Shown here piece after piece: positions 1,147 to 58,947 of a stretch of 64,000 nucleotides of DNA. Under the pieces are notes generated by a model. That model made no database searches. It saw only the letters and a program-made list of their open reading frames with translations, and was not told the origin of the DNA. This DNA is from Limnomonas spitsbergensis. Its lineage: Eukaryota > Chlorophyta > Chlorophyceae > Chlamydomonadales. The stretch covers positions 4,071,001 to 4,135,000 of the forward strand of contig JAYJMM010000009.1 of NCBI GenBank assembly GCA_037349105.1, given 5' to 3'. A program made the translations under genes and the position numbers. Every line of letters starts with the position of its first letter. The stretch's first letter is position 1.

Positions 1147-1578
1147 TCACAGCTTCAACCAGTTACCCACGCACCGGTCCCTTGATGTGGTGTCCATCAC
1201 AACCGTGGCTGCGTGAAGCTCGCCGGATGTGTCAACACCCTTGGCCCAAAACTTACTGAACCCTTGCCTAAACCCTGTACCCTTCACACCCACCGGGTTC
1301 CCTGAACCCTGAAACATGAAGCCCACCAGACCCCTGCCTAAACCCTCAACCGGTGAACCACGCACCGGTCCTTTGACATGGGTGCCCATCACAACCATTA
1401 CTGCCAGGAACTTGTCTGATTTGTCAACACCCTTCGCCCAACACCTACGAGACCATCGCGTACACCCTACACCCTTACCACCCACCCCGCCCCGAACCAA
1501 ATCCTGTAACCAGAAGCCCACCAGGCCCCGCCTAAACACTCAATCAGTGAAATATGCCTGAACCCTCAACCAGTAAAC
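1147..1578 (-). repeat. Decayed downstream copies of USP exon 4 end
   Basis: At least two diverged copies, near 1160-1250 and 1350-1440, of the exon 4 end that encodes VVMGTHVKGPVRG, each followed by intron-like sequence. The copy at 1579-1684 is closest to the exon start and keeps the best USP reading frame. The decayed copies lie 3' of it in transcription order. Confidence 0.7.
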
Positions 1579-4500
1579 CACGCACCGGTCCTTTGACGTG
1601 GGTGCCCATCACAACCGCCGCTGCGTGGAGCTCCTCGGCCTTGTTGCAAATGATGTGTCCGATGCTGCTGGAGTCCGTCTCAGACTGCATGCGTCAGGCA
1701 AGCAACCATTGATGACACACTAGTTCTTCTTTACTGTAGAAATTGCTTTGCCTCCTCGAACGAGAAATAAATATAGTTGTTCGCTAAAGCGCGCGCCTCA
1801 CTGGACAACTTTTTTTGACGTCCCAAATGTGGCGTTTTCCAGATAAGTTGGGGTTTTCATAAGGCGCGACGGCGAAACAACATGAATTTCGTGCGGAGGC
1901 AAAGAGCGTCTACGGGAACATAATTAGAGCTCCTTGGCCTTGTTGCAAATGATATGTTCGATGCTGCTGGAGTCCGTCTCAGACTGCATGCAGCAGGCAA
2001 GCAACCATTAATGACACGCTAGTTCTTTTTCTAACATAATTAGAGCTCCTTGGCCTTGTTGCAAATGATATGTTCGATGCTGCTGGAGTCCGTCTTAGAC
2101 TGCATGCGGCGGGCAAGTTCGTCAGAAACCATTGAGGATGCAACACGCTGCACGCATACACCTTAATTATGTGCACCCTGGGCGTGTTGTTCTTGTGTGT
2201 CGAGCAGAGCGAGAGGAAATGATTCACTAACCCCTCTCCCCACCCCGCACACACACACACACAAACCTTAATTATGTGCACGATGGGCGTGCTGCTGCTG
2301 TGCGTTGGGAAGCGGGAGAGGAAGCGCTTCACTATGAACTCTTCGGCCTTGCGCACTGAAGCCTCGTACTTGTCGCGGTCAATGCCAGGGTTGAAGTCAA
2401 CAGCTGTGGAGAGCCAGGGGAGTGGAAGTACAGGGGAGGAACGTGATTGGGGAAAGGAGGAGCAGGACAGGGGAGCATGGTGAGTGGTGAGTGGGGGGCA
2501 AGGTATAGATGTGGGTCCCAAAGAATGCATCAGCAGCCTTACAAACCACTCCTTGTACTTGTCACGCTTAATGCCTGGGTTTAAATAACATCTGTTGGAA
2601 GCCAGGAGAGGGGAAGAGGAGCAGCGACACAGGGGTGGAGAGTCGGTAGGCAGAGGGGGAGAAGGGCTAGAGAGCGGGTAAGTGGGAAAGCAGGGCAGGG
2701 GAGGAGGTGAGAAAGGGAGCACAGGGGACAGGGGATTCAGGTGGGCCCCACGCTTTGTAGCTATGGCCTCCTGAAAAGTTCCTAGTTCCCAACGTGGCGA
2801 ATGCAGGTATTGAATCTAACATGAGCTGTCAGCCACTGTGCCTGGGCCTGTGTGTGAAGACTCCCCGGTTTTCAAGGCCCTGATCGGGCTTTCGGCCGCT
2901 GCAGGGCAGCCCATCCATTAAAGAGACGCAGCAGGAGAAAAAACACTGTTTTCAACGAGTCATTTGACATCTTCGTCCAGACACCACACGATATTACTTG
3001 CGCATGATGGGAGATATGCCCTACACACCTCTGGCCCTCTACCCAAACGGGTGTGGGGTTGCGCATGCCAGCCTGACAATGACGTGGATCGAATGTATCT
3101 GCCGATACCCCTCTTGCCATGAAAGAATAATACGCCCTCAGCGTAAATACTGGCATCCACCCGTTCAATGGAGCACTGGGTAGGCTGCCATGACCTCACC
3201 TGCCTTATAGGTGGTTGCGTATGCCAGCCTGGCAATTTCGTGGACCACATTAATCTGCCAGCGCCCCTCTTGCTACGCATACATTATACACGCCCTCGGC
3301 GTGTACTACGAAAACCACCCATACAAATGTGGCACTGGACAGGCTACCATGCCCTCACCTGCTACCGTGTAGGTGGTTGCGTATGCCAGCCTGGCGATGA
3401 CGTGGATCAAATGGATCTGCAGGAGCAACACGACAGTAGCATGCATTACTCTCTGCGTATCCCCTCACAGCCCCTGTCATACAGCCACCATTCAGCTACT
3501 TTGTTTTTGCACGAATATTTGACAAATTAAGCACATCACGGCCGGCTGTTTGGGGCTCTTTGCTGCAAGCCCTGCTGATTAGGGTTTAGGGTTTAGGTCA
3601 ATCAAAGTTGGTCCCCATTGGCCCACTGGTGGCCGCACTGCCGACGGTCCCCCAACAGTGATCTGGCAAGCATGGCAAACAAGAACAGCCATGCAACATC
3701 GATGCATGCGGGGCATGTGCTTATTATGAAAATCCATGCTGGTCACAAACAGCATTTTCGAAACAAAATGTACAAGGGAAGAGGTGCGGCTTCATCAGTC
3801 TGCCCCACATCAGCCTGCTGTGCAGCCACCAGTGTTTTTTTTAGTGGTTGCCAGACCACCTTTGATGGGCCGCGCTGCGGCCACCCCTGGGCTGATTGAC
3901 ACCAAACATGGACCGGTCTCCGGCCAAGAGGCCTTGGCAGTAGGGCTGGCCAGGCCAGGGGCTGGTGGCCATAGGCCACTGTGTAGCTGAAATGCAGCTG
4001 GTGCGGTAACCACTTAAAAAACACTGGCAGCCACTACCCCAGCATCAGGCACCTCGCTGCACAAGGCCCTGCCCGCCATAGGCCGGCTAGTAGCTCAACT
4101 GCAGCTGAAGCCACCTAACATAAACATTGGGCTTTTGAGTTGGAGGCCAGAAGGTAGACCCATAGGCCCCAAGCGGCTCTCTGCTTGTGAATCTGGAGAA
4201 AGAGCTGGGCAGCAGAGAGTGCGTTACCCCCCAACAAATACCTTCATCCTACAATACCAATATTTACACTCTATAATAGCCGTATCGGTCAGATGGCCTG
4301 TTTGGTATTATGTTTGACTGTGTTGCCACCATTGCCACAAGGGGCAGCGGGTGGCTGACCAGCAACATGACAAGGGGCTGGTGCAAACTAATATAATTTG
4401 CGCCCTTATCATCCAGGGGAAGGTCCTCATTCGGACCTTAAATTAGCCAGTTGGGACCTTAATTTAGCCAGTTGGGACCCCAATTTAGCCAGTAGGGACC

Positions 4501-5215
4501 TTAATTTAGACGGGTTGCGGGATCCGCCTCTACATCAAGCCCGGGGCTAATTGTCTAAAATAAACACGGGAACTCATACATGTGTCTGCATGTCACGTGC
4601 AGTCGAAGTGCAAGGACAAGGAATCACTACTCGTTTGTGCCATTGAGAAATATACATACCAGTATATATACTTTACTCATGCTTCCTCTAGTCCCAGCAT
4701 GGTCAGATCTCCAAACCACATCTCAAGTTTATCCAGGGTGCAAGAAATATTTCGACTCCACGCACGTGTCTGTAAATCCCAGCATGGTCAGATCTCCTAA
4801 CCTCGTTGCCGTCCTTGAAACAAATAAACATTGGACCCCGACCCATGCTACTGCTCGTCCCTGCATGATCACATCTCCTAACATGAACCCTCTATGAAGC
4901 AAAAATAAACATTGCCCCCCCCCTCCCTGTGTCTGCACAAACCTCCCATGCTTTCAGGACGACCCTGTGCATGGACACCATGACAGGGCGGGATGTGTTT
5001 TTCCCGTACATGGAAAATACATCGCGCCCAGTCCTTGACAAAGTGGCGATCACACATCGACTGGATACTGGATCCCATCCAAGCTTCTTGATTCCCGTGC
5101 ATGAGCCATCACGTACCTCATCCGTGTCCTTGAAAAAATTGGCAACCAGCCAATCGAATGAGCGCTGAGAGTCATCGGAATCGTCGACTGGGAACACGAT
5201 CACACGGTTCGCCAT
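1544..5215 (-). CDS. Universal stress protein (UspA fold), 3' end incomplete
   Basis: Minus-strand gene; start ATG at 5215. Proposed exons: 5117-5215 (33 codons, beginning MANRVIVFPVDDSDDS), 3359-3416 (IHLIHVIARLAYATTY), 2267-2403 (DFNPGIDRDKYEA... to HIIK) and about 1579-1684 (HIICNKAEELHAAAVVMGTH). The phases match at each junction (0, 1, 0). The family signatures are the N-terminal beta-strand with Asp-Asp-Ser, the paired His-Val strand, an amphipathic AEEFIVKRFL helix, and the CxKAxELxAxxVVMGTH segment before the ATP loop. The usual last exon (LGSVSxY...) was not found. Either exon 4 reads on to a TGA at 1544-1546, giving a short protein, or the last exon lies beyond a decayed region or off the window. 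USP proteins are small cytosolic, often nucleotide-binding, stress proteins. Introns 1-3 contain copies of the adjacent exon edges. Confidence 0.78.
1915..2130 (-). repeat. Two decayed copies of USP exon 4 acceptor and start
   Basis: Two near-identical copies, about 1925-2000 and 2042-2115, of the segment that starts exon 4 (minus-strand GACTCCAGCAGCATC then GCAACAAGGCC). Both run into an in-frame TAA right after the Glu-Leu codons, so they cannot replace the real exon. They lie upstream of exon 4, as expected for acceptor-side duplicates. Confidence 0.75.
2140..2225 (-). repeat. Decayed copy of USP exon 3 end plus donor
   Basis: The plus-strand sequence CTTAATTATGTGCACCCTGG is a diverged copy of the exon 3 end at 2267-2290 (minus-strand ATAATTAAG then GT). 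A second partial copy of the exon 3 start (acceptor side) lies at about 2530-2605, upstream of the exon. Confidence 0.65.
3000..3270 (-). repeat. Two further copies of USP exon 2
   Basis: Whole-exon copies at about 3018-3110 and 3185-3265 of the exon at 3359-3416, including the segment encoding RLAYATTY and, in the nearer copy, the same CAG/GTGAGG donor. The period is about 165 bp. The rightmost copy (3359-3416), nearest in transcription to exon 1, best keeps both splice sites and the USP frame. Confidence 0.7.
3830..4026. mobile_element. hAT-type MITE, 197 bp, copy 1
   Basis: The element starts CAGTGTTTTTTTTAGTGG and ends CCACTTAAAAAACACTG, which are terminal inverted repeats. It is flanked by the perfect 8-bp direct repeat GCAGCCAC at 3822-3829 and 4027-4034. 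An 8-bp target duplication and CAGTG ends are the hallmark of hAT elements. There is no coding capacity, so it is non-autonomous. A related copy lies at 12724-12925. It sits inside USP intron 1. Confidence 0.88.
4428..4520. repeat. Four-copy repeat of about 23 bp
   Basis: Tandem units of the form TAGCCAGTTGGGACCTTAAT, with small variations, inside USP intron 1. Confidence 0.7.
4640..5060 (-). repeat. Decayed copies of USP exon 1 end plus donor
   Basis: Several copies, clearest near 4790-4830 and 5015-5045, of the exon 1 end and first intron bases. For example, minus-strand TTCAAGGACGGCAACGAGGT matches TTCAAGGACACGGATGAGGT of the true exon end at 5117-5140. Spacing is irregular at about 90-110 bp. 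All are downstream of the functional donor. Confidence 0.65.
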
Positions 5216-5983
5216 CTCGACAGGAGCAGCGGCAAGAGAGGAAGCAGCAGCTGTTGAGGGAGCGCGTGGACGAGATGTCGGGCACGATCACACGTGTGGT
5301 GGCACGATCACACGTGTCTCGGACGTGCAGACAGGAGGTTCTTTAATTGAAGAATCTGGTCGAAGCAGAGAGTGGCCTTGTTGGTGCTGACTCTGGCTTT
5401 GTCAGCGTCTCGGGCAGTCAGGGTGTCCAGCAGATGGTCTGCTTATTTTGACGCTTCTGTTTCGCCTTCTTGATCAGATCGCAACGATTTGACAGGCACG
5501 AATAACAAGCGAATCTTGCAGCTCGACTGAGTGGCGCTGACCTTGTCAGCTGCGATGGCCGTCGAGATGGCACTGCTGTGCGTTGGCATTGTGTACGGCA
5601 GAAATGCACGAGATCAGGGATCGCGGGCACCACGCTGACGTGTCACGGACCCCGATCAGACCCACCAGCCAGGCCAAGGGTGAGCCAGGCTGGATGACGA
5701 GCGCACCTGGTCCTCAGCACCAATATTAAGGATACGCAAAATCTGACACACTATAAACATACGCCACAATATTCTACCTCCACGCCTTTCTTAGGGACTC
5801 GCATCAAGAGAGGAGCTGCAGAGCCTGGGCGCTTTGAAATCTGCACCCAATCTTATCAGAACCTTAGCCAGCAAGCAGTACGTCGTCGCTGCCAGGCCTG
5901 CTACACCAGAGGAAGTGCTACCTGAGATTTATTTCCAAGAATCAGCCCCCCCAGCTTACCTGCATTACAGCCCCACAGACCAC
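5216..5983. promoter_or_regulatory. Divergent intergenic region, USP and fibrillin
   Basis: This 768-bp gap separates the USP start codon (minus strand, 5215) from the fibrillin start codon (plus strand, 5984). It holds a direct repeat CACGATCACACGTGT near 5281-5318 with a CACGTG-like core, and a TATAAA at 5752-5757, which is 227 bp before the fibrillin ATG. No coding exon was recognised. Shared regulation is plausible but not shown. Confidence 0.4.
5752..5757 (+). promoter_or_regulatory. Candidate TATA box of the fibrillin gene
   Basis: TATAAA in an A/T-rich stretch upstream of the fibrillin start. Position and orientation are compatible. No transcription start evidence is available. Confidence 0.25.
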
Positions 5984-11900: not shown

Positions 11901-14585
11901 ATTTCCCCTTCTTGCCTCGTCCCACTGGGAGGGACCACCCTCCCCTCGCTGCTGCATGGGTAAGTGATAATCTTCATAAACCGAACAGTACGGAATTATT
12001 TCCCCTTCTTGCCTCGTCCCACTGGGAGGGGCCACCCTCCCCTCGCTGCTGCATGGGTAAGTGATAATCTTCATAAACCGAACAGTACGGAATTATTTCC
12101 CCTTCTTGCCTCGTCCCACTGGGAGGGACCACCCTCCCCTCGCTGCTGCATGGGTAAGTGATAATCTTCATAAACCCAGCACGGAATAATCTCTCCTTCT
12201 GCCCTTATGCCACTGGGAGGGACCACCCTCCCCTCGCTGCTGCATGGGTAAGTGATAATCTTTATAAACCCAGCACGGAATAATCTCTCCTTCTGCCCTT
12301 ATGCCAATGGGAGGGACCACCCTCCCCTCGCTGCTGCATGGGTAAGTGATAATCTTTATAAACCCAGCACGGAATAATCTCTCCTTCTGCCCTTATGCCA
12401 ATGGGAGGGACCACCCTCCCCTCGCTGCTGCATGGGTGAGTTTAAATGTGCATGAACTGGTATGGAATCATTTCCCCTTCTAAACCCCATCTGGCCAACT
12501 TAATCAATAAGAAACAGAAACTCAACCACAAGGCCACATGAACAACTTTGCTGCATCTTTCTTTCGACGGTAACGGCATGGATGTGGCTTCTGCCCAGGA
12601 TGCGCTGTTCCCCTAACTCTCACACCCCCCACAGGGCGTACCTTTCTTTATTTGTTTCCTTCTTGCCTCATCCCAATGGGAGGGACCTCACGCCCCTGGC
12701 CTCTGCATAGGGTCTATGCGTGCCATGGTATTTTTTAGTGGGTAAGGGACCACCTTTGCTGGGCCGCCCTGCGGCCACCCCTGGGCCGATTCCCACCAAA
12801 CCTGGGCCGGCCTCCGGCCGGTGGCCCAAGCAGCAGGGCTGGTTGCACCAGGGGCTTGTGGCCGGGGGCAACAGTGTAGCTGAACTGCAGCTGATGGTGG
12901 TATACCACTCACTAAAAAAACACTGGATACGTGCGTTGCCTCACCCCTCCTATTTGCCTCCTCCCCTCGCCGTTTGTTAGGTATGTGCCCGTCCTTGCAG
13001 GCAGCGCTGTCGGGAAGAGCGGGGGTGCGTCCACAGGCGCAGTGACTCCCCGCGGGAACTTCCAGGTGAGATGTGAATGAAGATGGCGGGTGGCGACATG
13101 CTCTACCAGGCGCGGTTGGCTGACTTTGCTGAGTTGGTTCAACCAACTTGGTTGTGTTGGTTGTGTTGGCTGAGTCGGTTGAGTTGGTTGTGTTGGCTGA
13201 GTTGGTTGAGTTTCAAATGGGCTGTGTTGACAGAGTTGGCTGACTTGGTCGAGTTTCCAATGGGCTGTTACAAATGCCATCCAGAAACCTGGAATATATT
13301 GCACACTTGAGAAGAAGCAATGCTGAAACTGTCCCGCAGGAGTTCGATATGTCCAAAGGCTACGTGCTCAACCAGGCGCGATTCACTGCGTTCGGCCGCG
13401 AGTGCGAAGTGAACGTCGGGGGCACCGTCGAGGCGGTGGAGGCTTCTACTGGCAGGGATAGCGGCGGCGGCGGCAGCCGCCTTGGAATGTCTTCTCGCCC
13501 CGCGGCCCGGACGCGTGTGCGGGCCACTTTCACAGATGGAGAAATCGTCATTGGGGACGGGCTAGGACAGACCAGGTGGGTGGATGGGGGTACCTTTGGT
13601 TCTCACACATTTTCACACATTTTTACACTGACAGACCGTGTGGATTGTTTCGGGGTGCTTTTGTGTTCAAACATTTTTACACTACTGTCCTGCGGGCCAC
13701 CTTCACACATGTTCACACATGTTCCCCCCTAGCCAGAACAAAATAACGCTCACCACCTCCGTCCCCTCATCCCTAAGTTCCTGCTCCCCCGTCCCCTCGT
13801 CCCCTGTCCCTGGGTTCCTGCTCCCCCGTCCCCTCGTCCCCTGTCCCTAAGTTCCTGCTCCCCCGTCCCCTCGTCCCCTGTCCCTGGGTTCCTGCTCCCC
13901 CGTCCCCTCGTCCCCTGTCCCTGGGTTCCTGCTCCCCCGTCCCCTCGTCCCCTGTCCCTGGGTTCCTGCTCCCCCGTCCCCTCGTCCCCTGTCCCTGGGT
14001 TCCTGCTCCCCCGTCCCTCGTCCCCTGTCCCTGGGTTCCTGCTCCCCCGTCCCCCGTCCCCTGTCCCTGGGTTCCTGCTCCCCCGTCCCCCGTCCCCCGT
14101 CCCCTGTCCCTGGGTTCCTGCTCCCCCGTCCCCCGTCCCCTGTCCCAGGGTTCCTGCTTCCTCATCAGAATGGTATCCCCTTGCGACGACGGACGTCACC
14201 CCTCCTGCCTCACTTCACTGCCCCTCCTCACCCCCCTGACCAGAGCATCATCCTTACCTCCTCCCTCCCTTTTCCCTAGGACTGACCAGGTTGATGGAGG
14301 GGGGTAGTTCCCCCCACACTTGTTCATACGACTGACGCTGTCCCTCCCGCCTCACTCCTCCCTTGCTATTTGTCACCCCTCCTGACCAGAACTTAATCAG
14401 CCTCACCACCTACACCACCTCCTGCCCCTCATCCCCTGTCTTTCGGGTGCAGGTTGCCGATCCCTCTGGGCTGGTTGCGACCAGTTGGTTACGTGGAGAC
14501 CCCGTACCTCGATGACGAGCTGCGCATCAGCCAGGGGGACAAGGGCTCACTCTTTATTGCAGCCAGGGTGAAGGCGCCCAGCTAG
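5984..14585 (+). CDS. PAP/fibrillin family plastid lipid-associated protein
   Basis: Six exons: 5984-6378, 8687-8806, 10791-10931, 11219-11281, 13315-13575 and 14453-14585 (TAG at 14583). Together they make 1113 nt, or 370 residues, with every junction phase matching. The N-terminus MAAASVTMRSYPRAVKPP is Ala/Ser/Arg-rich and lacks acidic residues, as in a chloroplast transit peptide. The PAP domain follows in canonical order: EALKAELQKTIS, SPLIDGRWVLLYTAS across the exon 2/3 junction, TVPQEFDMSKGYVLN, and the C-terminal signature PIPLGWLRP...TPYLDDELRISQGDKGSLF. Fibrillins bind lipids in plastoglobules, thylakoids or eyespots. The in-frame frame is open upstream to 5834; ATG 5984 was chosen for the transit-like start. 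The acceptor of exon 5 (GAGAAG at 13309-13314) is weak but is required by phase and by the conserved Q-x-x-D motif. Introns are full of exon-edge duplicates. Confidence 0.87.
6590..8686 (+). repeat. Fibrillin intron 1: array of copies of exon 2 acceptor and start
   Basis: About 15 tandem copies of the segment spanning the end of intron 1 and the start of exon 2 (AACAGGTTGAACAGCTCACC ... ATCTGCAGGTACTGACAGG). The left block (6790-7370) has a period of about 117 bp. The middle block (7370-8000) has a period of 140 bp. Later units, to 8480, are irregular. A 50-bp sub-repeat occupies about 8470-8650. The only copy with both a clean AG and the PAP-compatible frame is the last one, at 8687. Confidence 0.75.
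8862..9052 (+). repeat. 22-bp tandem array, about 8-9 copies
   Basis: The unit is CAGCTGTCATCCACACTATG plus TG. It resembles the exon 2 segment CAGCTGTCGTCCATGAGCCC at 8751-8770 and lies downstream of that exon, so it looks like a secondary amplification of an exon-edge copy. Confidence 0.8.
9053..9440 (+). repeat. Three decayed copies of fibrillin exon 2 end
   Basis: Units of about 115 bp. Each contains CAGCTGTAATCTGTGAGCCC then CTGTTAGAGGTACCTCATCG, a diverged copy of the exon 2 end (CAGCTGTCGTCCATGAGCCC then TGTTAGGGATACATCC). They are downstream of the real donor at 8807. Confidence 0.75.
9546..10290 (+). repeat. Decayed copies of fibrillin exon 3 acceptor and start
   Basis: At least five copies of the exon 3 start (CATCAG then ATGGGTCCTGTTGTACAC). 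They sit near 9565 (GGTGGTTTCTGCTGCAAACC), 9893, 9970, 10160 (GGGGTCCTGCTGCACACCGC) and 10265 (TTGGATCCTGCTGTACACCG), each preceded by a CT-rich stretch ending in CAG or CA. All lie upstream of the functional exon at 10791. Confidence 0.75.
10350..10785 (+). repeat. Homopyrimidine CCTCCCTCCTCC tract, about 430 bp
   Basis: An almost pure C/T strand made of CCCTCCCTCCTCC-type units, immediately upstream of the exon 3 acceptor at 10790. It acts as an oversized polypyrimidine tract, and such mirror-repeat tracts can form triplex DNA. The long Pro/Ser and Glu/Arg frames on the two strands are by-products. Confidence 0.85.
10950..11165 (+). repeat. Four decayed copies of fibrillin exon 3 end plus donor
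   Basis: Copies at about 10968, 11028, 11092 and 11152 of GGATGTGGCTTACCAGTTC then TTTTACAAGTGGGTTT, the last bases of exon 3 and its donor. They decay progressively with distance from the exon end at 10931. Confidence 0.8.
11285..12470 (+). repeat. 97-bp tandem array derived from fibrillin exon 4
   Basis: About eight near-identical 97-bp units (11395-12170), followed by three shorter variant units to about 12440. Each has an AG acceptor (AACCGAACAG), a body matching exon 4 (TTTCCCCTTCTTGCC ... GGGAGGGACCACCCTCC) and a strong donor CATGGGTAAGTG. Only the first, most diverged copy at 11219-11281 fits the phases of exons 3 and 5. Neighbouring units differ mainly at GGGGCC versus GGGACC, which alternates and suggests a two-unit higher-order repeat. 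Confidence 0.85.
12724..12925. mobile_element. hAT-type MITE, 202 bp, copy 2
   Basis: Related over its length to the element at 3830-4026: TTTTTTAGTGG near the left end, CACTCACTAAAAAAACACTG at the right, and the shared internal words GCGGCCACCCCTGGGC and GCTGAACTGCAGCTG. The left terminus has decayed. The flanks TATGCGTG (12715-12722) and GATACGTG (12926-12933) look like a worn 8-bp target duplication. It lies next to a decayed exon 4 copy inside a fibrillin intron. Confidence 0.78.
13130..13262. repeat. GTTGG-rich short tandem repeat
   Basis: Imperfect 10-bp units of the TTGGTTGTG/TTGGCTGAG type, in the fibrillin intron just before exon 5. Confidence 0.8.
13745..14160. repeat. G/C-strand-biased minisatellite, 32-38 bp, about 11 copies
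   Basis: Units such as GTTCCTGCTCCCCCGTCCC then CTCGTCCCCTGTCCCTGG, within fibrillin intron 5 (13576-14452). The minus strand carries regularly spaced G-runs that could form G-quadruplexes. The Gly/Thr/Gln-rich minus-strand frames here are by-products. Confidence 0.85.
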
Positions 14586-14714
14586 TGAATCTCGGGCAGC
14601 TTTGACAGTCAGAGCAACACATTTTAGGCATGTGACATGTGCCCGTAAACCGGTACAGGCACTCAATATGCTGGCGAAACCGGAACAGGCAACACATAGG
14701 CGTATTTAAGGAGG

Positions 14715-15036
14715 CATCAGAGTGGCGACCCCCGATGATGAGCTGTACATCAATCAGGGGGTCATGGGCTCACTTTTCATAGCAGCCAGGGCGAAGGTTA
14801 TTCTATAATTCGGCCAAGGGGGCATCAGAGTGGTGACCCCCGATCATACGCTGCGCATCAGCCAAGGGGACAAAGTTTCCCTGTTCATAGCAACCAGGGC
14901 AAAGGCGGCCTGCTAGTATGCAGCAGTAAGCAGAAGAGTGAAGAGTGGAGACCCTCCGATGATGAGCTGCGTATCAGCCACGGGGAGAAGGGCTCACTTT
15001 TCATAGCAGCCAGGGCAAAGGTGCCCAGATCATAGC
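14715..15036 (+). pseudogene. Three decayed copies of the fibrillin last exon
   Basis: Copies at about 14722-14805, 14832-14917 and 14945-15035 of the final exon (GATGATGAGCTGCG, ATCAGCCA, GGGCTCAC, TTCATAGCAGCCAGGG). They carry substitutions and small indels. Two end in TAG or TAA at nearly the same place as the true stop. They lie 3' of the functional stop at 14583, so they would be 3' UTR or intergenic. Confidence 0.82.
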
Positions 15037-15074
15037 GGGGCCAGGATGGAGTTTATAATCCTGTATTTCTCAGG

Positions 15075-39400: not shown

Positions 39401-42400
39401 GCATTTGCATCCCTGTCCAGTCCTCCCCTATCCTCTCATCTGCAACATCTTGTGTCGCTGCTTGAGGGCATTTGCATCCCTGTCCAGTCCCTCCCTATCC
39501 TCTCACCTGCAACATCTTGTGTCGCTGCTTGAGGGCTTGCAGCTGTTGGAGCGAATGCAGGTGGGTGACATGGCACAGAAACCTGTGCGGTACACATTCA
39601 TGCTGAGCGGGACACACTGTGAAGTACATGTTCAATGAGGCGGTACACAATGAAAACAAGTTCATATCTGATGGCGGGCTGCATGGCACTGGAACCTGTT
39701 CAGTATACATTAATGCCAGGCATTGCATAAACTAAAGAAAACATTGAGAACTGGAAGTGACACTCAAGCATGTCAAAACGAGGCTGGGCACTGTGAAGTG
39801 CGCGTCAATGTTACGCTGTACACTCTGTGCGTTGCATGCCATTGACAGGCGGTACATAAAGGGAAGTACATACGTTGATACCAGGCGGTACAGCACTTGT
39901 ACTACATGTTCATACCAGGCGATACACTGAAAACATGTAAATAGCTGACGATACACACTGAAATATATGGCAACACTAGGCTGTACATGCTGTGTAGTAT
40001 CATTTGGGCAGAACACACTAGGCACATCCTGGCATTATGCTGTACACATTGTGCAGTACATGTTGATGACATGCTGTAGTGCTGTACACACTGTGCAGTA
40101 CATGTCACCATCAAGCGGTACCATGCAGATTTTATATGTGATGATGCCAGGCAGGACAGGTTGGGTTTTATTGGGTTGCATTGTACCGCATAGATTCACA
40201 GCAGGCAGACAGGCTGTACATATTTGAGGAAAACAGCATGAGTGTCATCTCAGCTGAGGGCCACACTCCTGGTAGTTCATAACTTGCATTGGTTGTAATG
40301 AGATGGAAAATATGAAATTGTCGCACACCTATTGAAATGTGATGCAAAAGCTAACGACCGCTGTCAGAGATACCGGTGTCATTGCTGCTGGCTACCCACA
40401 AACAGCCATGAGGTACGGATAATTACTGTACTTGGGTACATCATCGGTGATGCAACCTTCATCTGTGCCTCTTTTCTTGAGAACAAGTGTGACATGCTTG
40501 GTCATATACCTCAGAGTGCAGCATAACATGCGTGCATATGTCTGACCTACTTGGACAGCTCAGTTAGTGTCAGCGAGCCTCGCTGCATTGAATCGTACTC
40601 GAGGTACAGGCGGTACATGAGTACCTCATCGTCCAGTACAGTTCCAGCCAGCCGGGTCAGCAGCTTGAATGCCCGTGCGTGCACCTGCAGTACAATTCCG
40701 ATTAAACTTTGTAGGACAGCAGTACCCAGCAGCTGCAGTACACAACGGTCCGCATTGAGGAGCATGTAAATATATCTGGCGCTTGTTAAGCGTCCATCAC
40801 AGCCCTCATGCGCACTACATCCTTATAAACCCTACGCACTTAAACATCCCACCGCAACCTCTGCTTGGGTGGCTCAGGTTTGGACTCAAACCCCGAACCT
40901 ACACGCTGGCCGCCGCACACCTTCTCTGAAGCCTAGGATTTATACCCTAATCCCTGAACCTTTCCTGGCTCTCTGAAGTCCAAAAACTAGGTAGCTTAAT
41001 CTGCCTTGTTATCTGGGATTGAAACTGTCAACCCCAAATCATGACCTTCATATACAAGCCCTAAACTGTAACTCTTTTGAATCAGGAAGCAAGCCACAAA
41101 CTGTACCATGTTGCCTAGGATTGCTACCCTAACCTTAAACCCTAGGATGCAAGACCTTAACCCTAAACCCTAGGATGCAAGACCTAAACCCTAAACCCTA
41201 GGATGCAAGACCTAAACCCTAAACCCTAGGATGCAAGACCTAAACCCTAAATCCTAACTTGTTAGTATTGGATGTAAGCCATGAACCCTCAACCCTACCT
41301 TGTTGGCCGGAGTTTGCAGGATGCTGAGTGTGGTACCCGCCTCCTCGAACGCGTCCATGATGTCATCAGCACTCACCTGGGGAGTTACGGCAACAAAGTG
41401 GGTTACGTCAAAAGGGGTTACAGCAACTGAGGTTACAATCTAACATCAAAAAGGGGAACAGAGATTAAGACCTGCTCAGCCTCCTTAAAACACATTCATG
41501 ATGCCCTCAGCACTCCCCTGGGGGGTGACAACGAAAGGGGTTACGCCAACAAGGGCTATGGCAGGTTACCATCAAAATGGGTTAGGTCGAATGGGGATAC
41601 GGCAACTGAGGTAACAGGTTCCCATCAAAAGGGCTTACAGAAGGTCTATATCCCATCCCAATTAGGCTCGGCCTCCTCAAACGTGTCTATGAATACATCC
41701 GTGCCAACCTGGGAGGTTCATGCATTGCGCACAAATGTCAGATTAGGATTCCTGAGTTCCATCAAGAGAACGCGTGCAGGAATGCGGAGAAAAGGTAGCT
41801 CATTACTCTTTACTCAAATGACAAACACATTTTTGGTTGGGTCTGGGTGGGTCTGGGTCTGGGTGAAAGGTTACCGGCCGTCCCCATTCAGAACAGCAGT
41901 GTCCGCATGATGGTGCACTGTTCATGCTTAGGGTTTAGGGGATAGCTAGGAACAAATTTTAAGACGTGCACCCTGCCTCAGCCATCCCCACGAAAACAAC
42001 AAAAAAAGTCATCAAAAACTAGATTGTGCCAGAGTGGCCAGTGCCACCTGCTTTAACCCTGGAACAAACTTCCGGAAATGTGAATTGAAATAATAAACGG
42101 ATCCGTGCTCACCCTCCCATGTCCATCTAAATTATAAATGGTTCCAGAGTGGCGAGTGCATCCCGACTTCACCTTAACAAATTAGAAATACCATTATTAC
42201 TCATCAACTAATGATCCCACTCCTTGCTCACCCTCCCATCTCCATCTAGATCGAACAGGACGGAGAAGTAGAGCATGTCCGCCGGGGTGCAGGCAGGCGC
42301 CAGCAGGAGCAGCAGCTGGCCCAGGCCGGAAAAATTCATCTCACCCTGAAAGGTGTGAACATACGTGAGATCAGGTTGAAATAAGTGTGAAGGGGATAGA

Positions 42401-45400: not shown

Positions 45401-48400
45401 GATATAAATAGTGGACTCTGCGGCATGCCCTGCAGCTTGGTTACCAGCCACAATGGTCTTGCTTAGGCCCCCATCAACCCAGTGAAAACCGCCTGGCGTG
45501 CCATCAGTTAATGGGCAACATCCTTTCAGCAAGGCGCATCTCATGTGAGCCCCAAACTGCCACCAAATATATCTTGAGCCTCATGACATAAATCTCAAGT
45601 CCTCACCAGGTTTACCCTAAATCCTCACCTGCTTCATCCTTAACCCTGACCAGCCGAACCCCATGCTCTTGCCAGCTTAACCCATAAACCTCGACAACAC
45701 GAAACTTGCCAGCTTAACCCTGAACCTCAACAGCATAAACCTCACCATATAAACCCTAACATGCTTATCCCTGAACCCACACCGGCGAAACCCTCACACA
45801 GACATCCCTAAACCTTTACCAGTAATACCCTGAGAGAAACTGAAAAGGGCAGCACTCATTGACTTAATCCTACCCCTCAACTGCACAATCCCTTTTGGCT
45901 TAGACCTAAAAGTATACATTACAAACCTCACCGGAAAATCCCTTCACTTCACATGCCCATCCCTAAACCCTCACCTGATTAAAAGTCACATACCCATCCC
46001 TAAACCCCCACCGGCTTTAAAGTCACAGGCCCATCCCTAAACCCTCACCAACTCAAAAGTCTCATGCCCATCCCTTAACCATCACCAAATATAACCTAAC
46101 AGGTCCATCCCTAAACCCTGACTAGGTTAACCTCAAATAAACTGAACAGCATAAACCTCAAAAACTCATCCTAAACCTCAAAATACCCACCCTCACGAGC
46201 TCAACCCCACCCCCTAACAGCAAAAAGCCTCACCGGTGATCCATCGATCTCTAGACCATCTGTGAGGTATGTCAGGTCCAGCCGCTCACGCTCCGAAACC
46301 TCTGGCCGCCACTCCAGCTCCGCCGAGGCGGTCGAGGCGCCAAATGGGGCTGCGGCAACCAGGGGCTCCTGGGCCTGCCGAGCGCGCACTGCCGCAATCT
46401 CTGACTGCTTTGCCTGGGAGGAATGCAGGACGGGCGGAGGGGAGGGGTGGGTGAAGGCATAGCGGCACGATATGGTAAAGGTTAATCTGGATGGGACAAT
46501 TAAGGTTGCTCGATACGGGGCATGATATGGCACAGGGTAAGCTATATTGTACTGCCAAGGCTGCTCAACACAGCACGGTACGGCACAGGCTACCCTGGAT
46601 TGTACTGCCAAGGGTCGCCATTGAGCAGTGAGCAGGAATAAGTGGGACCAGGGTAAGAGGAATCAATAGTGGGGGCTATCCGGTCTGAGCGGGGATAGCA
46701 GAGGCGTACAGCCCAAAAGTGTAACATACTGTACTGTAGCCTGTACCTCAGCCTGTGTCTGGAACTCAATCCATACCGCATAATGTACTGCATTATGTAC
46801 ATGCATTGTACTGCATATTGTACCACATAATGTACCTGCACCGCACTGCACAGATCCAGCTTTGGGATGCACACATTGTGGCCACGGTTGGTGCCGTGCA
46901 CCTTACGCTGCATTAGGGTACCGCATTATGTACCGCATCCCGTACCTGCAATGCGGTACGCAGCTCCTGCATTGAGATCCATCCATTATGGTCGCTGTCT
47001 GCACGTGCCTTGAGTTGCATGAGGCAGCGCTCCAGCCGCCGGTCACTCAGATCAGGGCGAACGTACTGCAGGAGATAGGCAGGTGGGAGGCAGTACAGGC
47101 AGGAGTGCTTCTCAGGTGTGAGAGTGCAAGTACCGCTTTGGCACACTGACAGCAGCAACAACTGTCACACTGGCAACAGCTACAACTGCCCAAAATTGAG
47201 CATGTGTATGAGGTCAGAGGTGTGAAGCGTCCACTGAGAATGAATTTCCAGATGTTATGCTGTACACAATGCTTTGTAACAAACGCACGAATAAAAGCTA
47301 CAAAGAAAGGCACACTTTAGCAAACGTACAGAGGGCGCTTGCAACAGGAACAAGAGAAACAGCAACAACCGTCACACCTTGAGCATGCACATGAGGTGGA
47401 AAAGGAATCCCTGGAGACTACATGTTCAGGCCCAACTACACATAATGCTCTTGCAACAAAAACAGCAACAACAACAGCAACACTCGTCACACCTTGAGCA
47501 TGCACATGAGGTGGAAAAGGAATCCCTGGAGACTACATGTTCAGGCCCAACTACACATAATGCTCTTGCAACAAAAACAGCAACAACAACAGCAACACTC
47601 GTCACACCTTGAGCATGCGCGTAAGGTCAGATGTGGAGAGGGAACCGTCACCGTTGCTGTCGAACCGCTTAGCCAGCGTCTCCAGCGGTACACGACAACG
47701 CATCAGATGCTCTGCCAAAAGAAGCAGGGCATCAGCAGGGCCCGATGGCTGGGAGGGAGTGCCGGTGCCGGCTCCAACACCGCTGCTGGTTGCGCGGGCG
47801 GCTGCAGCGGCGGCAGCCGCATGCCGGTTGAAGGTTCGGATGATGTCCTCGAAAGGGAGCTGAATGCAGGTACAAAACATCGGTTTACATACAGGTGGAT
47901 GGTTGAGTATTGGTTGTATATTATGCACACACATGTGCAGTATGGCAGGGGGGTTCAGTGTGCCTGTATGTACACCATCTGCACATCGCTCGCTGCAACA
48001 ATGGGTATGAATACAAGTATGAACTAAGTACACCAGTGCGTACATCTGTACCGCACACCTGTCGTACGCAGCTGGGTTCAGCGCGCCCCGTATGTACGTC
48101 ATCTGCACGTAGCTGACAGTGACTATAGGACTGAATGAAATTAATAACTATGGGCACCAGTGTGTAATTGTGTACATCTGTAATACACACCTGCAGTACG
48201 GTGGCCGGGTTCAGCGCTCCTTAGATGTACACCATCTGCACCTCGCTGACTGCAACAGCGGGTATGTATGCAAGTATGAACTGCATACACCAGTGTGTAC
48301 ATCTGTACTACACACCTGCAGTACGGCGGCCGGGTTCAATGCACCTCGGATGTACACCATCTGCGCCTCGCTGACTGCCGGCCACACCGTCCGTACCAGC

Positions 48401-51400: not shown

Positions 51401-54400
51401 TTTGTGCCAGGGCGCTGCCAGAACCCACCTACTAGTTGCATGCTTTGTGCCAGGGCGCTGCCAGAACCCACCTACTGGTTGCACTCTTTGTGCCAGGGCG
51501 CTGCCAGAACCCACCTACTAGTTGCAGGCTTTGTGCCATGGCGATTCCAGAACCCACCTACTAATTGCAGACTGTGTGCCAGGGCGCTGCCAGAACCCAC
51601 CTACTAGTTGCAGGCTTTGTGCCAGGGCGCTGCCAGAACCCACCTACTGGTTGCAGGCTTTGTGCCAGGGCGCTGCCAGAACCCACCTACTGGTTGCATG
51701 CTTTGTGCCAGGGCGCTGCCAGAACCCACCTACTAGTTGCAGGCTTTGTGCCAGGGCGCTGCCAGAACCCACCTACTGGTTGCACTCTTTGTGCCAGGGC
51801 GCTGCCAGAACCCACCTACTAGTTGCAGGCTTTGTGCCAGGGCGCTGCCAGAACCCACCTACTAGTTGCAGGCTTTGTGCCAGGGCGCTGCCAGAACCCA
51901 CCTACTAGTTGCATGCTTTGTGCCAGGGCGCTGCCAGAACCCACCTACTGGTTGCACTCTTTGTGCCAGGGCGCTGCCAGAACCCACCTACTAGTTGCAG
52001 GCTTTGTGCCATGGCGATTCCAGAACCCACCTACTAATTGCAGACTGTGTGCCAGGGCGCTGCCAGAACCCACCTACTAGTTGCAGGCTTTGTGCCAGGG
52101 CGCTGCCAGAACCCACCTACTAGTTGCAGGCTTTGTGCCAGGGCGCTGCCAGAACCCACCTACTAGTTGCATGCTTTGTGCCAGGGCGCTGCCAGAACCC
52201 ACCTACTGGTTGCACTCTTTGTGCCAGGGCGCTGCCAGAACCCACCTACTAGTTGCAGGCTTTGTGCCATGGCGATTCCAGAACCCACCTACTAATTGCA
52301 GACTGTGTGCCAGGGCGCTGCCAGAACCCACCTACTAGTTGCAGGCTTTGTGCCAGGGCGCTGCCAGAACCCACCTACTGGTTGCAGGCTTTGTGCCAGG
52401 GCGCTGCCAGAACCCACCTACTGGTTGCATGCTTTGTGCCAGGGCGCTGCCAGAACCCACCTACTAGTTGCAGGCTTTGTGCCAGGGCGCTGCCAGAACC
52501 CACCTACTGGTTGCACTCTTTGTGCCAGGGCGCTGCCAGAACCCACCTACTAGTTGCAGACTGTGTGCCAGGGCGCTGCCAGAACCCACCTACTAGTTGC
52601 AGGCTTTGTGCCAGGGCGCTGCCAGAACCCACCTACTGGTTGCATTCTTTGTGCCAGGGCGCTGAAAGAACCCACCTACTAGTTGCAGGCTTTGTGCCAG
52701 GGCGCTGCCAGAACCCACCTACTAGTTTCAGGCTTTGTGCCAGGGCGCTGCCAGAACCCACCTACTAGTTGCAGACTGTGTGCCAGGGCGCTGCCAGAAC
52801 CCACCTACTAGTTGCAGGCTTTGTGCCAGGGCGCTGCCAGAACCCACCTACTAGTTGCAGGCTTTGTGCCGGGGTGCTGCCAGAACCCACTTTCACCTCC
52901 ACTCTGTTCCTTCCAACAGGATGATGGACCATACATCCTACAGTGAGGCGTAAGAGCCCTCCCGACCGTGTTTGGGTGAAACATCCCGTCCTCATGCTGC
53001 AGACTGTAGGCCAGGGCGCTGCCAGGGTGCTGCCTTCACCTCAAATTTTGGAATCTGATAGGGTTCTAAACCCTGAACCATCCATGATATGTTAAGGCAA
53101 TATAGCCATCGTGACCAAGTTTGGGTGTCACAACTTCCCGCTGCAAGCTGCAGGTTGTGTGCCAAGGCGCTATCAGGGCATGCCTGCACTTAACATTCTA
53201 GCCTCCAAAATATTTATAAACCCTTACATTCTAGCCTCCGAAACCTTTATAAACCCTCGATATTACATTTAGGCGACAGTGCCCTCCCCACCTCATTATG
53301 GTGCAGTGTACCTGCCACCCGTTGCAGGCTGGTGGGGCAAGGGGCTTGCTCAGGACCCCGTCATCTGAAGGTTCATAAACCCTATATCATGAACGCATTA
53401 GTTCAACTCGTCCATCATGCCCTCCCTACCTAGTTATCATGCAGCATCCTTGCCACCCGTTGCAGGCTGGGGGGGGAGGAATGCTCCCGGGGCCTGCCTC
53501 CACAACAGGTTCCCATAACCTAATGGTCTACAAACCCTATAACCTGCACCCTGAAGCTGAAATGTACATAATTCCTAACTTATTCTGTAATGGTGCAGTG
53601 CCCCTGCCAGCCGTTGCAGGCTGGGTGTCAGGACGCTGCCGAGGCCTGCCTCCACATCAGTTCCAGTCTCCAGATTGCTTATTAACCCTTAACCCTGCAC
53701 CCATGAGCAGAGATCGTGCATAGTACCCTCCCTACCTTGTTGTGGTGCAGAGTACCCGCCACCCGCTGTAGGATGGGTGCCAGGACGCTGCCGGGGCCTG
53801 CCTCCACTTCCGCCACTGCCTCGTAGCACTCCTCTCCGGCATACTCCACATCCTCAAGATACACGCGGCCGTCATTATCGAAATCCATCAGGGCCTGGAG
53901 GGGGGAGGCAGCAGGATTACAATTATCAGGGGGTGATCAATGTAAAGAGGTGGATGTGGCTGTTTTCGTTCAAGTCATCATCAGGGCCTGAAGAGGGGAG
54001 ACAGCAGGATTGAAATTATGTGGTGATAAATGAAAATAGGTTGATACGTCTGTTTCTCTCAAGTCATCATCAGGGCCTGGCATACAGCGTGGCAAATCCA
54101 CCAAAATAATTATATGATTGAATTTTAGCGCAGGTTCCGGAAAATGAAAAAGAGGTTGCTCCGCCTGTCGTCATCCAGTTTCATCATCAGGGTCTGACTT
54201 ACAGCCTCACATATAGTCCGGGCGGGGAGATGACGTGTCCAGGAAAAAAATAACGATATTATATTGCACTGGTAGGCAAAATATAGAAGGCCCTTCGATG
54301 TAAATACTATTTTAATTGACTTCCTATTATTATTATAATAGATAATTAACTCTTGCAAGATCTGGGCATGGCCTGTGACATCAGGCTTGACGAGCAGTGC

Positions 54401-57400: not shown

Positions 57401-58947
57401 TCCTGTACAGCTTCCTGCGACCGTTATGTACAGCTTTTACCCAGTTCCTCACCGGGACAGCACCTAGCATCCCGCCATCACACCTTGCTTCCCCCTCCGT
57501 GACTGACCTGCAATGCGAGGGGGCCCGGCCCGCTCCTGCCGCCTGAAGCCCCGCCACGGCCAGCATCCCAATTATCATGCTCTCCGCCGCCGCCACCGCT
57601 CTCCGCACGGAGCGCCTGCTGCTGCTGCTGCGCCCTGCCTGTGGTGCCCGACGGCCCGTCGCCGCCGCGCCCCTGCCCCTGGAGAGCCCCCGACCCTGGT
57701 CGCAGGCGGAGGTTCTCCAACAGCCCCGCCGCCGAAACGCCCGGCTGCCCCTTGGGCCTTCCTCCGCCCTGCGCCCCTGTTTGCCCTGGAGAGCCCTCCT
57801 CTTCATCAAAGAGACCAAACTTCTCCCGCCCCTTATCACCAGGCGGCCTGCTGGCAACCTTACTGCCACTTCCTCCTGCCCCTTCGTCCGCCAAGAGGCC
57901 ATACTCCTCCTTCCGGCCTTTGGAGGCGCCGCCGCTGCCGCTTCGGCCCGCTCCCCTGCCGTCAGCCTCATCAAACAGACCAAACTTCTCCTCTGCAGGC
58001 TTGCGATACCCGGACGCCTCGGTCGCAGGTGCGGGCGAGGCCTGCGCGGGGCGGTGCTGCGGCCCTCCCCCCCCTCTTCCTCCCCCTCCCCCTCGACCTT
58101 CCTCCAATAAGAGACCAAACTGCTCCCCGCGGCCCGCAGGACCGCCGGATCCACCAGGATTTGCAGAAGAGCTAGAGCGGACATCAACCGGCAAGCCTGG
58201 TCTTCCCCCGCCAACACTGCCTCCTCCTCCTCCACTCCCGCCTCCCCCGTCCTTGAGGCCACTGACACGGTCTGCGGGCGAGCTACCTCTCCCATTACCG
58301 CCGCCACTGCCACCAACGACACCACCCGCTGCAACATCAGATAGAAGCCCAAAGCCGCCGTCGTCCTCCGGTTTGCTCCTCGCACTCGATCTGCCACCGC
58401 TGCCTCCTCCGCCCCCACCGCCGCCATCGCCGCCGCTGCCACGAGCTCCGGCCGCAGCAGGGGCAGCGACCACATTGAAGCTGAACTTGTCCTCGCCTTG
58501 ACCGCCGTCTCCTCCTGCACTCGGCTCCGACCGGCCCGTGCCCAGCCCGCTCGCCCCTGGCCGGCCTGGCTGCTGCCCGAGGGCGCGCATCGGAGATTCC
58601 ACCCGCTGACCGTCCATCACATCGTCCAGCAAACCGAACCCGCCCAAAGCCTTACTTGGAGACTCAAAGCCTTTGTCAGGCGCAGGCTTGAGCGCACCAC
58701 TACCACCGGAACCAGGCAGCAGCTTGACAGCAACACCACTACTGCCATCGCCGCCGCCGCTGCTGGCAGCGGCGTCGCTGAACAGCCCGAATCCGCCGCC
58801 GCCACCACCCCCGCCACCGCCATCGTCTCGCTTCACAGGTACCGGCTCTTCCAAAGCCAAGTCGTCGACGCCGCCCTTCTTGGGAGGTTTGCCGCGGCTG
58901 ACGGGGGGCGGTGAGTCTCCGTCCTCTTCATCTAGGCCAAACCCCAT
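16253..58947 (-). CDS. Giant multi-EF-hand protein with repeated [FY]G motifs, 28 exons
   Basis: Proposed exons in transcription order: 57508-58947, 56366-56473, 55562-55630, 54721-54861, 53736-53894, 49997-50103, 48941-49277, 48316-48474, 47608-47859, 46946-47065, 46234-46413, 45287-45334, 44825-44899 (tentative), 43873-44078, 42859-43033, 42232-42345, 41299-41376, 40551-40684, 39507-39582, 23624-23848, 22434-22728, 21583-21848, 21400-21498, 20616-20971, 20108-20252, 19538-19663 (tentative), 18928-19044 (acceptor uncertain), 16253-18466. All have GT-AG ends and matching phases; the total is 7821 nt, 2606 residues plus stop. Nine EF-hand-like loops start near residues 553, 590, 646, 798, 907, 947, 1224, 1287 and 1774. 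The best (DSDHNGWISMQE, DIDGDGRVTLAD, DLDGDGRVSADD) keep the calcium ligands; those at 553, 646, 798 and 1287 are degenerate. N- and C-terminal regions are low complexity. No membrane segment was seen. Calcium-responsive scaffold is a guess; no named family was recognised. Confidence 0.8.
20253..20580 (-). repeat. Decayed copies of exon 25 acceptor and start
   Basis: Copies near 20343-20375, 20465-20490 and 20530-20565 of the exon 25 start (plus strand CTGCTGATCCAGGCCACGAC, functional at about 20228-20247). All lie upstream of that exon in the minus-strand gene. Confidence 0.7.
21982..22345 (-). repeat. 46-bp tandem array, about 7-8 copies, in intron 21
   Basis: The plus-strand unit is GTGAGTATCCTTGCAGACCA followed by TTTGGGGACCTGGGCCCCTGT and TCAGG. 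The unit resembles the intron end just before exon 22 (plus strand GGGTGAGTCTCCTTACACAC at 21872-21891), so it is an acceptor-side amplification upstream of exon 22. Confidence 0.75.
22785..23165 (-). repeat. Four decayed copies of exon 21 acceptor and start
   Basis: Plus-strand CGTGTCCATACTGCTGATCACC marks the exon 21 start at 22707-22728 (encoding VISSMDTSLPTE). Copies recur near 22798, 22883, 22993 and 23130 with spacing of about 85-140 bp. The copy nearest the exon body is the one in frame. Confidence 0.8.
24075..39536. repeat. 67-bp satellite, about 230 copies, inside intron 19
   Basis: A continuous 15.5-kb array. On the minus strand each unit holds 30 nt identical to the end of exon 19 (encoding ALKQRHKMLQ), then a donor, then about 37 nt of intron start. 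The rightmost unit joins seamlessly to the functional exon at 39507-39582. A C/T variant at the donor base decides whether the unit keeps CAG/GTGAG or has CAG/ATGAG; both types are interspersed throughout. Other variant sites are CCCCCC/TCCCC/TTCCC and CTATCC/CTGTCC. The unit length is not a multiple of three, so the serial 64-residue plus-strand frames are artefacts. Confidence 0.95.
41140..41265. repeat. Telomere-like 27-bp minisatellite
   Basis: Four units of CCTAAACCCTAGGATGCAAG plus ACCTAAA, containing CCCTAAA heptamers, in intron 17. It is interstitial, flanked by coding exons on both sides, so it is not a chromosome end. Confidence 0.75.
42346..43480 (-). repeat. Decayed duplicates flanking exon 15 on both sides
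   Basis: Upstream of exon 15 (42859-43033) lie at least four copies of its acceptor and start, near 43083-43140, 43195-43250, 43300-43355 and 43430-43475. Each shows a form of CGCTGGTCGAGAGCAGCCTG. Downstream, a copy of the exon end lies at about 42640-42720 (GACAGAAGGGGGCAGCC ... CAATCATTCAAACGGCAG-like). This is the clearest single exon with both kinds of edge copy. Confidence 0.75.
43580..43780 (-). repeat. Decayed copies of exon 14 end plus donor
   Basis: Copies near 43595-43640 and 43705-43755 of plus-strand CACCTGTCCAGATCTGCAGT and GGCCTTGCTCCCTC, which is the exon 14 end at 43873-43905. Acceptor-side copies of exon 14 lie on its other side near 44155-44190 and 44280-44325 (CTGAAGCCGCATGATCTG). 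Confidence 0.75.
45560..46200 (-). repeat. Degenerate CCCTAAACCCTCACC repeats of intron 11
   Basis: About ten to fifteen loosely spaced units such as CCCATCCCTAAACCCTCACC. On the minus strand each reads GGTGAGGGTTTAGGGATGGG and so carries a donor-like GGTGAG, like the true exon 11 donor at 46233. Origin from the exon edge is likely but less certain here. Confidence 0.6.
46946..48474 (-). CDS. Exons 8-10: EF-hand loop triplet
   Basis: Three successive exons (48316-48474, 47608-47859, 46946-47065) each carry one EF-hand. These are SDINGNSCLDAPD (weak), FDSNGDGSLSTSD (good, Asp at position 12) and DSDHNGWISMQE (canonical, Glu at position 12). Exon 9 also has an Ala run and a Thr/Ser/Gly/Pro linker before ADALLLLAEHLMRC. 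All junctions are phase 0. The introns hold duplicates of the exon 8 end (48060-48110 and 48190-48250) and of the exon 9 end (47370-47605). Confidence 0.82.
47370..47607 (-). repeat. 115-bp duplication of exon 9 end plus donor
   Basis: Two near-perfect 115-bp units plus a partial one. Each contains CACACCTTGAGCATGC, the exon 9 end and donor, plus a CAACAACAACAGCAACA run. Only the rightmost, at 47608, continues into the coding exon. Confidence 0.82.
50110..50370 (-). repeat. Copies of exon 6 acceptor region
   Basis: Six to seven units of about 40-55 bp, each with GGCATGAGACTGAAGGGAG or a close variant. They copy the intron end next to exon 6 (plus strand GCCTGTGCATGAGGCTGAAGG at 50102-50122). 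Confidence 0.75.
50617..52885. repeat. 43-bp satellite, about 52 copies, inside intron 5
   Basis: The plus-strand unit is TAGTTGCAGGCTTTGTGCCA followed by GGGCGCTGCCAGAACCCACCTAC. Diagnostic variants (GCATGC, GCACTC, GCAGACTG, CCATGGCGATTCC) recur in a fixed order. A block of six units (258 bp) is repeated, so there is a higher-order structure. The unit matches the end region of exon 5 (minus strand GGCAGCGTCCTGGCACCCAT). The plus-strand 85-171 residue frames are by-products. Confidence 0.93.
52890..53730 (-). repeat. Decayed ~150-bp copies of exon 5 end
   Basis: Stepwise copies of the exon 5 end and donor near 53600-53665, 53450-53510, 53310-53365, 53140-53180 and 52995-53035. All show GTTGCAGGCTG... 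and a form of GGACGCTGCC, between the functional exon (53736-53894) and the 43-bp array. They record the stages between one exon edge and a satellite. Confidence 0.8.
53955..54660 (-). repeat. Intron 4: copies of exon 5 start and exon 4 end
   Basis: Near exon 5 lie three acceptor-side copies (TCATCATCAGGGCCTG at about 53970-53990, 54065-54082 and 54180-54197). Near exon 4 lie three copies of that exon's end (GTTGCTGCCAGGCTGGGCAT type) at about 54355, 54460 and 54575. One intron thus carries both classes of duplicate, each next to its own source exon. Confidence 0.78.
55725..56335 (-). repeat. Decayed copies of exon 2 end plus donor
   Basis: Five to six copies, about 90-110 bp apart, of plus-strand CACCTGGACCCACTTCCCAA then CCTGCTCCGGAGC, the exon 2 end at 56366-56400. 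Examples are near 55735, 55905, 56045, 56115, 56200 and 56270. Confidence 0.75.
56925..57125. repeat. 62-bp tandem repeat in intron 1
   Basis: Three to four units containing CAGCACATAGCTCCCTAGCTC and CGCTAGTCTATGAACAAC. The wider stretch 56700-57480 is made of looser CTAGCTTCC repeats of about 60 bp, resembling the first bases of intron 1 (GATGCTAGGTGCTGTCC on the minus strand). Confidence 0.75.
57508..58947 (-). CDS. Exon 1 of the EF-hand gene: Gly-rich, eight [FY]GL motifs
   Basis: 480 codons in one open frame starting MGFGLDEEDGD, with an in-frame TGA about 45 bases upstream, which supports this start. The body is Gly/Ser/Pro-rich and predicted disordered. Eight short motifs recur at roughly 25-95 residue spacing: GFGLDEED, GFGLFSDA, GFGLLDDV, GFGLLSDV, QFGLLLEE, KFGLFDEA, EYGLLADE and KFGLFDEE. 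They have an aromatic-Gly-Leu-hydrophobic core followed by acidic residues, in otherwise unconserved linker, which suggests a short linear binding motif. The exon ends TTGCAG before GTCAGT at 57507. Long frames on the other strand and the shifted frame (57384-58520) are shadows of its GC bias. Confidence 0.82.

Follow-up and report, generated by a model that had tools for sequence, protein, structure and literature searches.

Decayed copies of exon edges beside exons of Limnomonas spitsbergensis point to frequent local tandem duplication

Introduction

In the green algae Chlamydomonas reinhardtii and Volvox carteri, tandem repeats are reported to be densest in introns, towards intron ends and near intron-exon junctions (PMC3887541). 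Tandem duplication is also reported as an established source of new introns, with cases in the potato RdRp gene (PMC4974935) and in Drosophila (PMC2891723). Here, we describe copies of exon edges in the introns of three genes, coding for a USP, a PAP/fibrillin and an EF-hand protein, in a stretch of 64,000 nucleotides (nt) of the green alga Limnomonas spitsbergensis (contig JAYJMM010000009.1, positions 4,071,001-4,135,000, hereafter the window; the genome comprises 260 Mb in 124 contigs). A preliminary description of the window attributed these copies to a ratchet of tandem duplications across splice junctions that builds introns. We find that the polar arrangement of the copies is real across the genome yet far from universal, and that splice junctions are not favored over other noncoding points. 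The reading that we hold with considerable confidence is that local tandem duplication is frequent in general and that selection keeps one intact coding copy, without a special intron-building mechanism.

Results

Exon edges are copied on a predictable side

To assess an exon edge, its terminal 60 nt of exon were aligned both with the intron or flank next to it and with 200-500 length-matched background segments taken from other genes. An edge was called positive if its score was reached by no more than 0.7% of background draws, and the same edge was also tried against the opposite side as a control. The window sample consists of 19 splice edges (8 in USP, 8 in the EF-hand gene and 3 in PAP/fibrillin) from a subset of the window exons, which are only partly modelled because ab initio gene finding detected too few of the true junctions to serve as a source of exons. 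Twelve of the 19 edges have a copy beyond chance on the predicted side: the acceptor with the exon start is copied 5' of exons, and the exon end with the donor is copied 3' of them. The preliminary description had the arrangement right, although it spoke of more than 20 junctions. The copies are ~65-94% identical and have decayed unequally. At the same cut-off, none of 11 exon centers had a copy (nearest miss p = 0.01).

The USP gene, modelled against the protein query P0001 with a spliced protein-to-DNA aligner written for this analysis, comprises four minus-strand exons in the window (99, 58, 137 and 99 nt) and a fifth exon beyond it, placed by tblastn. The joined product (131 amino acids) is 84% identical over 100% of its length to a protein of Chlamydomonas eustigma. 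Homologous proteins back the joins of exons 1-4 by protein alignment; in USP it is thus the copy adjacent to the exon body that agrees with the protein. Six of the eight USP splice edges are positive. Two of six are also positive on the opposite side, one because the 58-nt exon 2 is duplicated as a whole and the other with a weak score of 16. In a tblastn map of the gene, copies of the start of exon 4 occur only 5' of that exon and copies of its end only 3', through the 2.6-kb intron 4; some single protein matches in this map are weak, and DNA matches back them. The two copies of the exon-4 acceptor are ~92% identical to exon 4 and have changes in common with each other, and two further copies of the exon-4 end and donor lie beyond the window within the same intron 4.

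In the EF-hand gene, four exons were selected by the EF-hand motif alone and are thus independent of the repeats. All four donors are positive, as opposed to none of the four acceptors and none of the eight opposite sides; an acceptor copy identified earlier by eye at 53894 failed the edge test. The donors after 48316 and after 39507 also have copies, but these exons were chosen for them and stand outside the counts. The PAP/fibrillin gene lies on the plus strand (PF04755, 29.2 bits, over 14484-14558). Its internal exon has both edges copied in its own introns (acceptor score 19, donor score 17, each reached in 0 of 500 draws), the acceptor of its terminal exon is negative, and no opposite side is positive, giving two of three and zero of three, respectively. 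The strongest copies in this gene are those that follow its stop codon.

Outside the window, the rates are lower than the earlier wording of "nearly every exon" would suggest. In a kinesin sample of 30 exon loci on 17 contigs, where edges are profile edges and some are domain ends rather than junctions, 7 of 60 edges are positive on the predicted side and 0 of 60 on the opposite side. Self-alignment of these loci shows the arrangement directly: in L037, the last unit of an array of 82-base-pair (bp) units spans the acceptor and ~43 nt of exon, and in L043, units of 135 bp begin inside the exon end. Eight HSP70 loci were modelled against the query P0030 (one of them encodes a product with 89% identity to C. 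reinhardtii HSP70B). Before counting, 13 of 88 modelled introns were left out as doubtful (one in L046, one in L047, two in L050, two in L049 and seven in L051); L049 and L051 are divergent HSP70s, and their retained junctions are less certain. In HSP70, 8 of 142 edges are positive on the predicted side and 1 of 129 on the opposite side, figures obtained by subtracting the USP counts (6/8 and 2/6) from totals of 14/150 and 3/135. In four of the six HSP70 genes examined, the introns are entirely free of local repeats. The polarity is therefore borne out by near-empty opposite sides, while generality is not. Among positive edges, 18 are donors and 9 acceptors; a donor bias was considered and is not claimed (p of about 0.12, calculated by hand).

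Splice junctions are not favored over other noncoding points

In introns of at least 300 bp, 60-mers from the intron interior are copied within their own intron in 121 of 401 cases, compared to 13 of 78 exon edges; with USP left out, the figures are 78/308 and 7/70. Selection on the exonic member should keep junction pairs visible for longer, which would make the lower overall figure at edges the more telling. Coding ends that are not splice junctions are copied as well: both stop-codon edges tested, in PAP/fibrillin and USP, have copies past the stop (for USP, score 29, 0 of 500 draws).

Local repeats in the sequence examined are mostly direct. Of 164 kb, 45% lies in direct repeats at distances of up to 3 kb, a figure that includes a 15-kb array and other arrays, compared to 1.8% for inverted repeats. 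Around 22 kinesin loci, kept after removal of 8 of the 30 that overlapped, direct repeats make up 23% of the flanks and 2.9% of the matched exon, and inverted repeats 1.5% of the flanks. In USP, local direct repeats of any kind account for 35% of intron sequence, and copies whose partner runs 12 nt or more into an exon for 18.5%, so to describe these introns as built from edge copies goes too far.

Intron length and paralogues

Edge copies are rare in short introns and commoner in longer ones (1 of 72 edges below 300 bp, 5 of 42 at 300-600 bp and 8 of 36 above 600 bp), which fits growth by duplication. In two HSP70 paralogue pairs, with one doubtful intron pair left out, all 22 reliably modelled intron positions are common to both members, and the signature of intron gain, an intron missing in one paralogue, was seen at none of these 22 positions. 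Exon lengths are equal in 20 of 21 comparisons, compared to intron lengths up to 4.5-fold apart (677 and 150 nt). In the HSP70 paralogue pairs L044/L047 (contigs C21/C124) and L045/L048 (C119/C36), exons have ~82-88% DNA identity and introns are mostly unalignable. Such pairs on separate contigs could possibly reflect an old genome duplication or a hybrid origin.

Arrays and other features of the window

The largest repeat of the window is a 67-bp array of ~230 units (Table 1). Its unit appears to consist of a donor and, before it, the last part of a putative 36-nt exon that was placed at the array edge by splice consensus and has no homologue. The donor GT is retained in 129 of 217 registered units and lost from 88. 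The 30 exon-like positions are off consensus at 0.4% of bases, compared to 41% of units for the first G of the donor.

Intron 3 of USP contains a dispersed 184-bp element: scoring of 40 of 235 candidates gave at least 39 further copies, which are 84-95% identical and spread over many contigs. Of 20 copies that were read (L052-L071), most have the inverted ends CCGTAGAC...GTCTACGG with TA flanks, and by these features the element is likely a Tc1/mariner-type miniature inverted-repeat transposable element (MITE). It was also considered as an introner and rejected, as its ends are not GT..AG.

Other features were noted in passing. Further tandem arrays at 11397-12441, 21982-22339 and 50618-52890 have units of 97, 46 and 43 bp with donor-like GTAAGT, GTGAGT or GTGGGT. 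Interstitial repeats at 41131-41256 and 9794-9877, with AACCCTAAACCCTA-like and CCCTCAAAACCC-like units, resemble plant-type telomere sequence. A glutamine-rich open frame of 758 codons (16253-18529, minus strand) has no Pfam match, and its upstream edge is copied at 18595-18727 with 76% identity.

Table 1. Exons, edge copies and repeats in the window (window coordinates)
Feature	Position	Strand	Basis or remark
Copies of USP exon-4 end and donor	1346-1424, 1153-1226 (span 1153..1424)	-	DNA matches
USP exon 4, functional copy fitting homologues	1586..1684	-	Protein and spliced alignment
Dispersed 184-bp element, inverted ends, TA flanks, MITE-like	1732..1915	.	Within duplicated part of USP intron 3
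Two copies of USP exon-4 acceptor and exon start	1927-2030, 2043-2117 (span 1927..2117)	-	DNA matches, edge test
Copy of USP exon-3 end and donor	~2155-2220	-	Edge test
USP exon 3	2267..2403	-	Spliced alignment
Copy of USP exon-3 acceptor and start	~2551-2700	-	Edge test
Decayed whole-exon copies of USP exon 2	~3192-3258, ~3034-3102	-	DNA matches, edge test
USP exon 2 (58 nt)	3359..3416	-	Spliced alignment
Decayed copy of USP exon-1 end and donor	~4785-4840	-	Donor edge score 15, background maximum 14
USP exon 1, coding from ATG	5117..5215	-	Spliced and protein alignment
PAP/fibrillin internal exon	13340..13574	+	Model from open frame and splice consensus
PAP/fibrillin terminal exon including stop codon	14453..14585	+	PF04755 match
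Three decayed copies of PAP/fibrillin coding end, past stop codon	14708..15028	+	Score 40, 0 of 500 draws
EF-hand exon X4, weakest	20108..20252	-	Donor copied downstream, score 16, p 0.007; acceptor p 0.04
67-bp array, ~230 units	24084..39536	-	Unit: end of putative 36-nt exon (39507-39542) and GTGAG donor
EF-hand exon X3	46946..47065	-	Donor copied downstream, score 19, p 0.003
EF-hand exon X2	47608..47859	-	Donor copied downstream, score 17, p 0.003; acceptor p 0.04
Decaying copies, end and donor of exon ending at 48316	48000..48315	-	Exon chosen for its copies, uncounted
EF-hand exon X1	53736..53894	-	Donor copied downstream, score 34, p 0.003; acceptor edge without copy

Discussion

We propose that local tandem duplications of tens to hundreds of bp would arise very frequently throughout noncoding DNA, sometimes amplified to minisatellites. 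A duplication with one end in a coding exon would be tolerated only as long as the gene continues to use an uninterrupted coding copy; its counterpart on the noncoding side would turn into intron or 3' flank and then decay. The polarity and position of the copies and the intactness of the exon-side copy would follow from tandem geometry and purifying selection on the protein. Because these two suffice, recognition of splice junctions is not needed. The mutational step itself, the neutrality of the duplications and the exclusive use of the exon-proximal splice site are parts of this proposal that we infer from the arrangement of the copies.

Several observations weigh against this proposal. The start-codon edge of USP is weak (p = 0.024), and in USP alone the comparison of edges with intron interiors is reversed, in a small sample (6/8 and 43/93, respectively). 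Many HSP70 introns are unequal between paralogues without a detectable repeat, so that insertions of other kinds, or copies decayed long ago, contribute; the 184-bp element in USP intron 3 is one such insertion. Young two-copy duplications outside arrays, those in which the microhomology or staggered ends of the duplication step would be visible, are too few among the repeats compiled to show such a signature. Finally, GT and AG appear to be kept in the copies somewhat more often than neutral decay predicts.

The last point bears on a possible role of the copies in splicing, in which duplicate donors and acceptors would be under selection as sites of alternative or recursive splicing. Across 29 edges, the splice GT/AG is retained in 52 of 66 intron copies, or 52 of the 61 that span it, compared to 67.7% of 464 other GT/AG dinucleotides in the same alignments (P = 0.0015), and an edge-level sign-flip test gives 0.00025 (0.0003 at E <= 1e-4). 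Per-base identity, calculated without the kinesin edges, is 94% for splice dinucleotides versus 81% for codon positions 1 and 2. Given that the latter are constrained on the exon side, a constrained partner alone is insufficient to account for the excess, and retention above neutral decay is suggested. However, P rises to 0.033 when unspanned copies are scored as lost, and at E <= 1e-4, where 43 of 55 are retained, it is 0.010, or 0.088 with that scoring. The copies are also non-independent, seven kinesin junctions (placed by eye) and one EF-hand junction were included for having copies, and aligners favor intact motifs. The loss of the donor GT from 88 units of the 67-bp array likewise speaks against a splicing role, which we judge unlikely. 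If it were true, introns would grow by gaining working duplicate splice sites, more than 100 in one intron. The converse, that decoy splice sites are selected against, is not supported, as no purge of decoys is seen in the retention of GT/AG.

The ratchet of the preliminary description, in which duplications arise or are fixed preferentially across splice junctions as the main route of intron growth, draws support from the 12 positive splice edges of 19 in the window, including the USP edges that outdo their intron interiors. It is nonetheless decidedly improbable. There is no overall excess at junctions (13/78 against 121/401), stop-codon edges are copied too, and exon-reaching copies amount to 18.5% of USP intron sequence. 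What survives of the ratchet is that one working copy remains and the other becomes noncoding; its specificity for junctions does not survive, and the generality and strength of the pattern were overstated.

Mobile elements or introners deserve very little weight as the source of the repeats. The dispersed 184-bp element with inverted ends does sit in USP intron 3, but the rest of the 1.27-kb query, the exon-edge part from USP introns 3-4, matched its own locus only among the 40 of 235 candidates scored (a lower bound), the terminal sequences and TA flanks of the element are not those of an intron, and edge copies contain sequence of the adjoining exon. Chance, low complexity or assembly artefact is the least credible source: some matches found by eye fail the edge test, as did the acceptor at 53894, but scores are background-controlled, opposite sides are near-empty, and the unequal decay of the copies is not a product of assembly error.

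If duplication is as general as we propose, this genome would offer a natural experiment in how introns grow and how the spliceosome chooses among near-identical adjacent sites, with junction copies of graded decay and the ~230-repeat array of a putative exon end and donor as its material. Gene predictors should be warned that exon-like pieces in such introns may be decayed edge copies. Edge polarity by itself is no evidence of a special mechanism.

The pattern described here is best read as unusually intense local tandem duplication, which selection brings into view at coding edges. We found no paper on junction-copy introns, judging by titles and the beginnings of abstracts, which is not proof of absence. 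We take the 67-bp array and the 82-bp array of L037 to be of the intronic minisatellite or variable number tandem repeat (VNTR) kind; unlike intronic minisatellites in general, the unit at the array edge here extends into the adjoining exon and takes in the splice site of that exon. The likeness to the AGGT model of Rogers lies in a tandem duplication that includes coding sequence and splice signals and leaves the protein unchanged. In that model, a new intron arises within an exon, whereas here existing introns gain copies and intron positions are kept, as at the 22 positions of the two HSP70 pairs. The survey of C. reinhardtii and V. carteri (PMC3887541) is similar in that it, too, concerns green algae with repeats concentrated in introns and near intron ends. 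In the portion at hand, that survey counts repeats by position and does not describe units that contain an exon edge and splice site, the decay of copies or stop-codon edges, all of which are features of the introns and flanks presented here.

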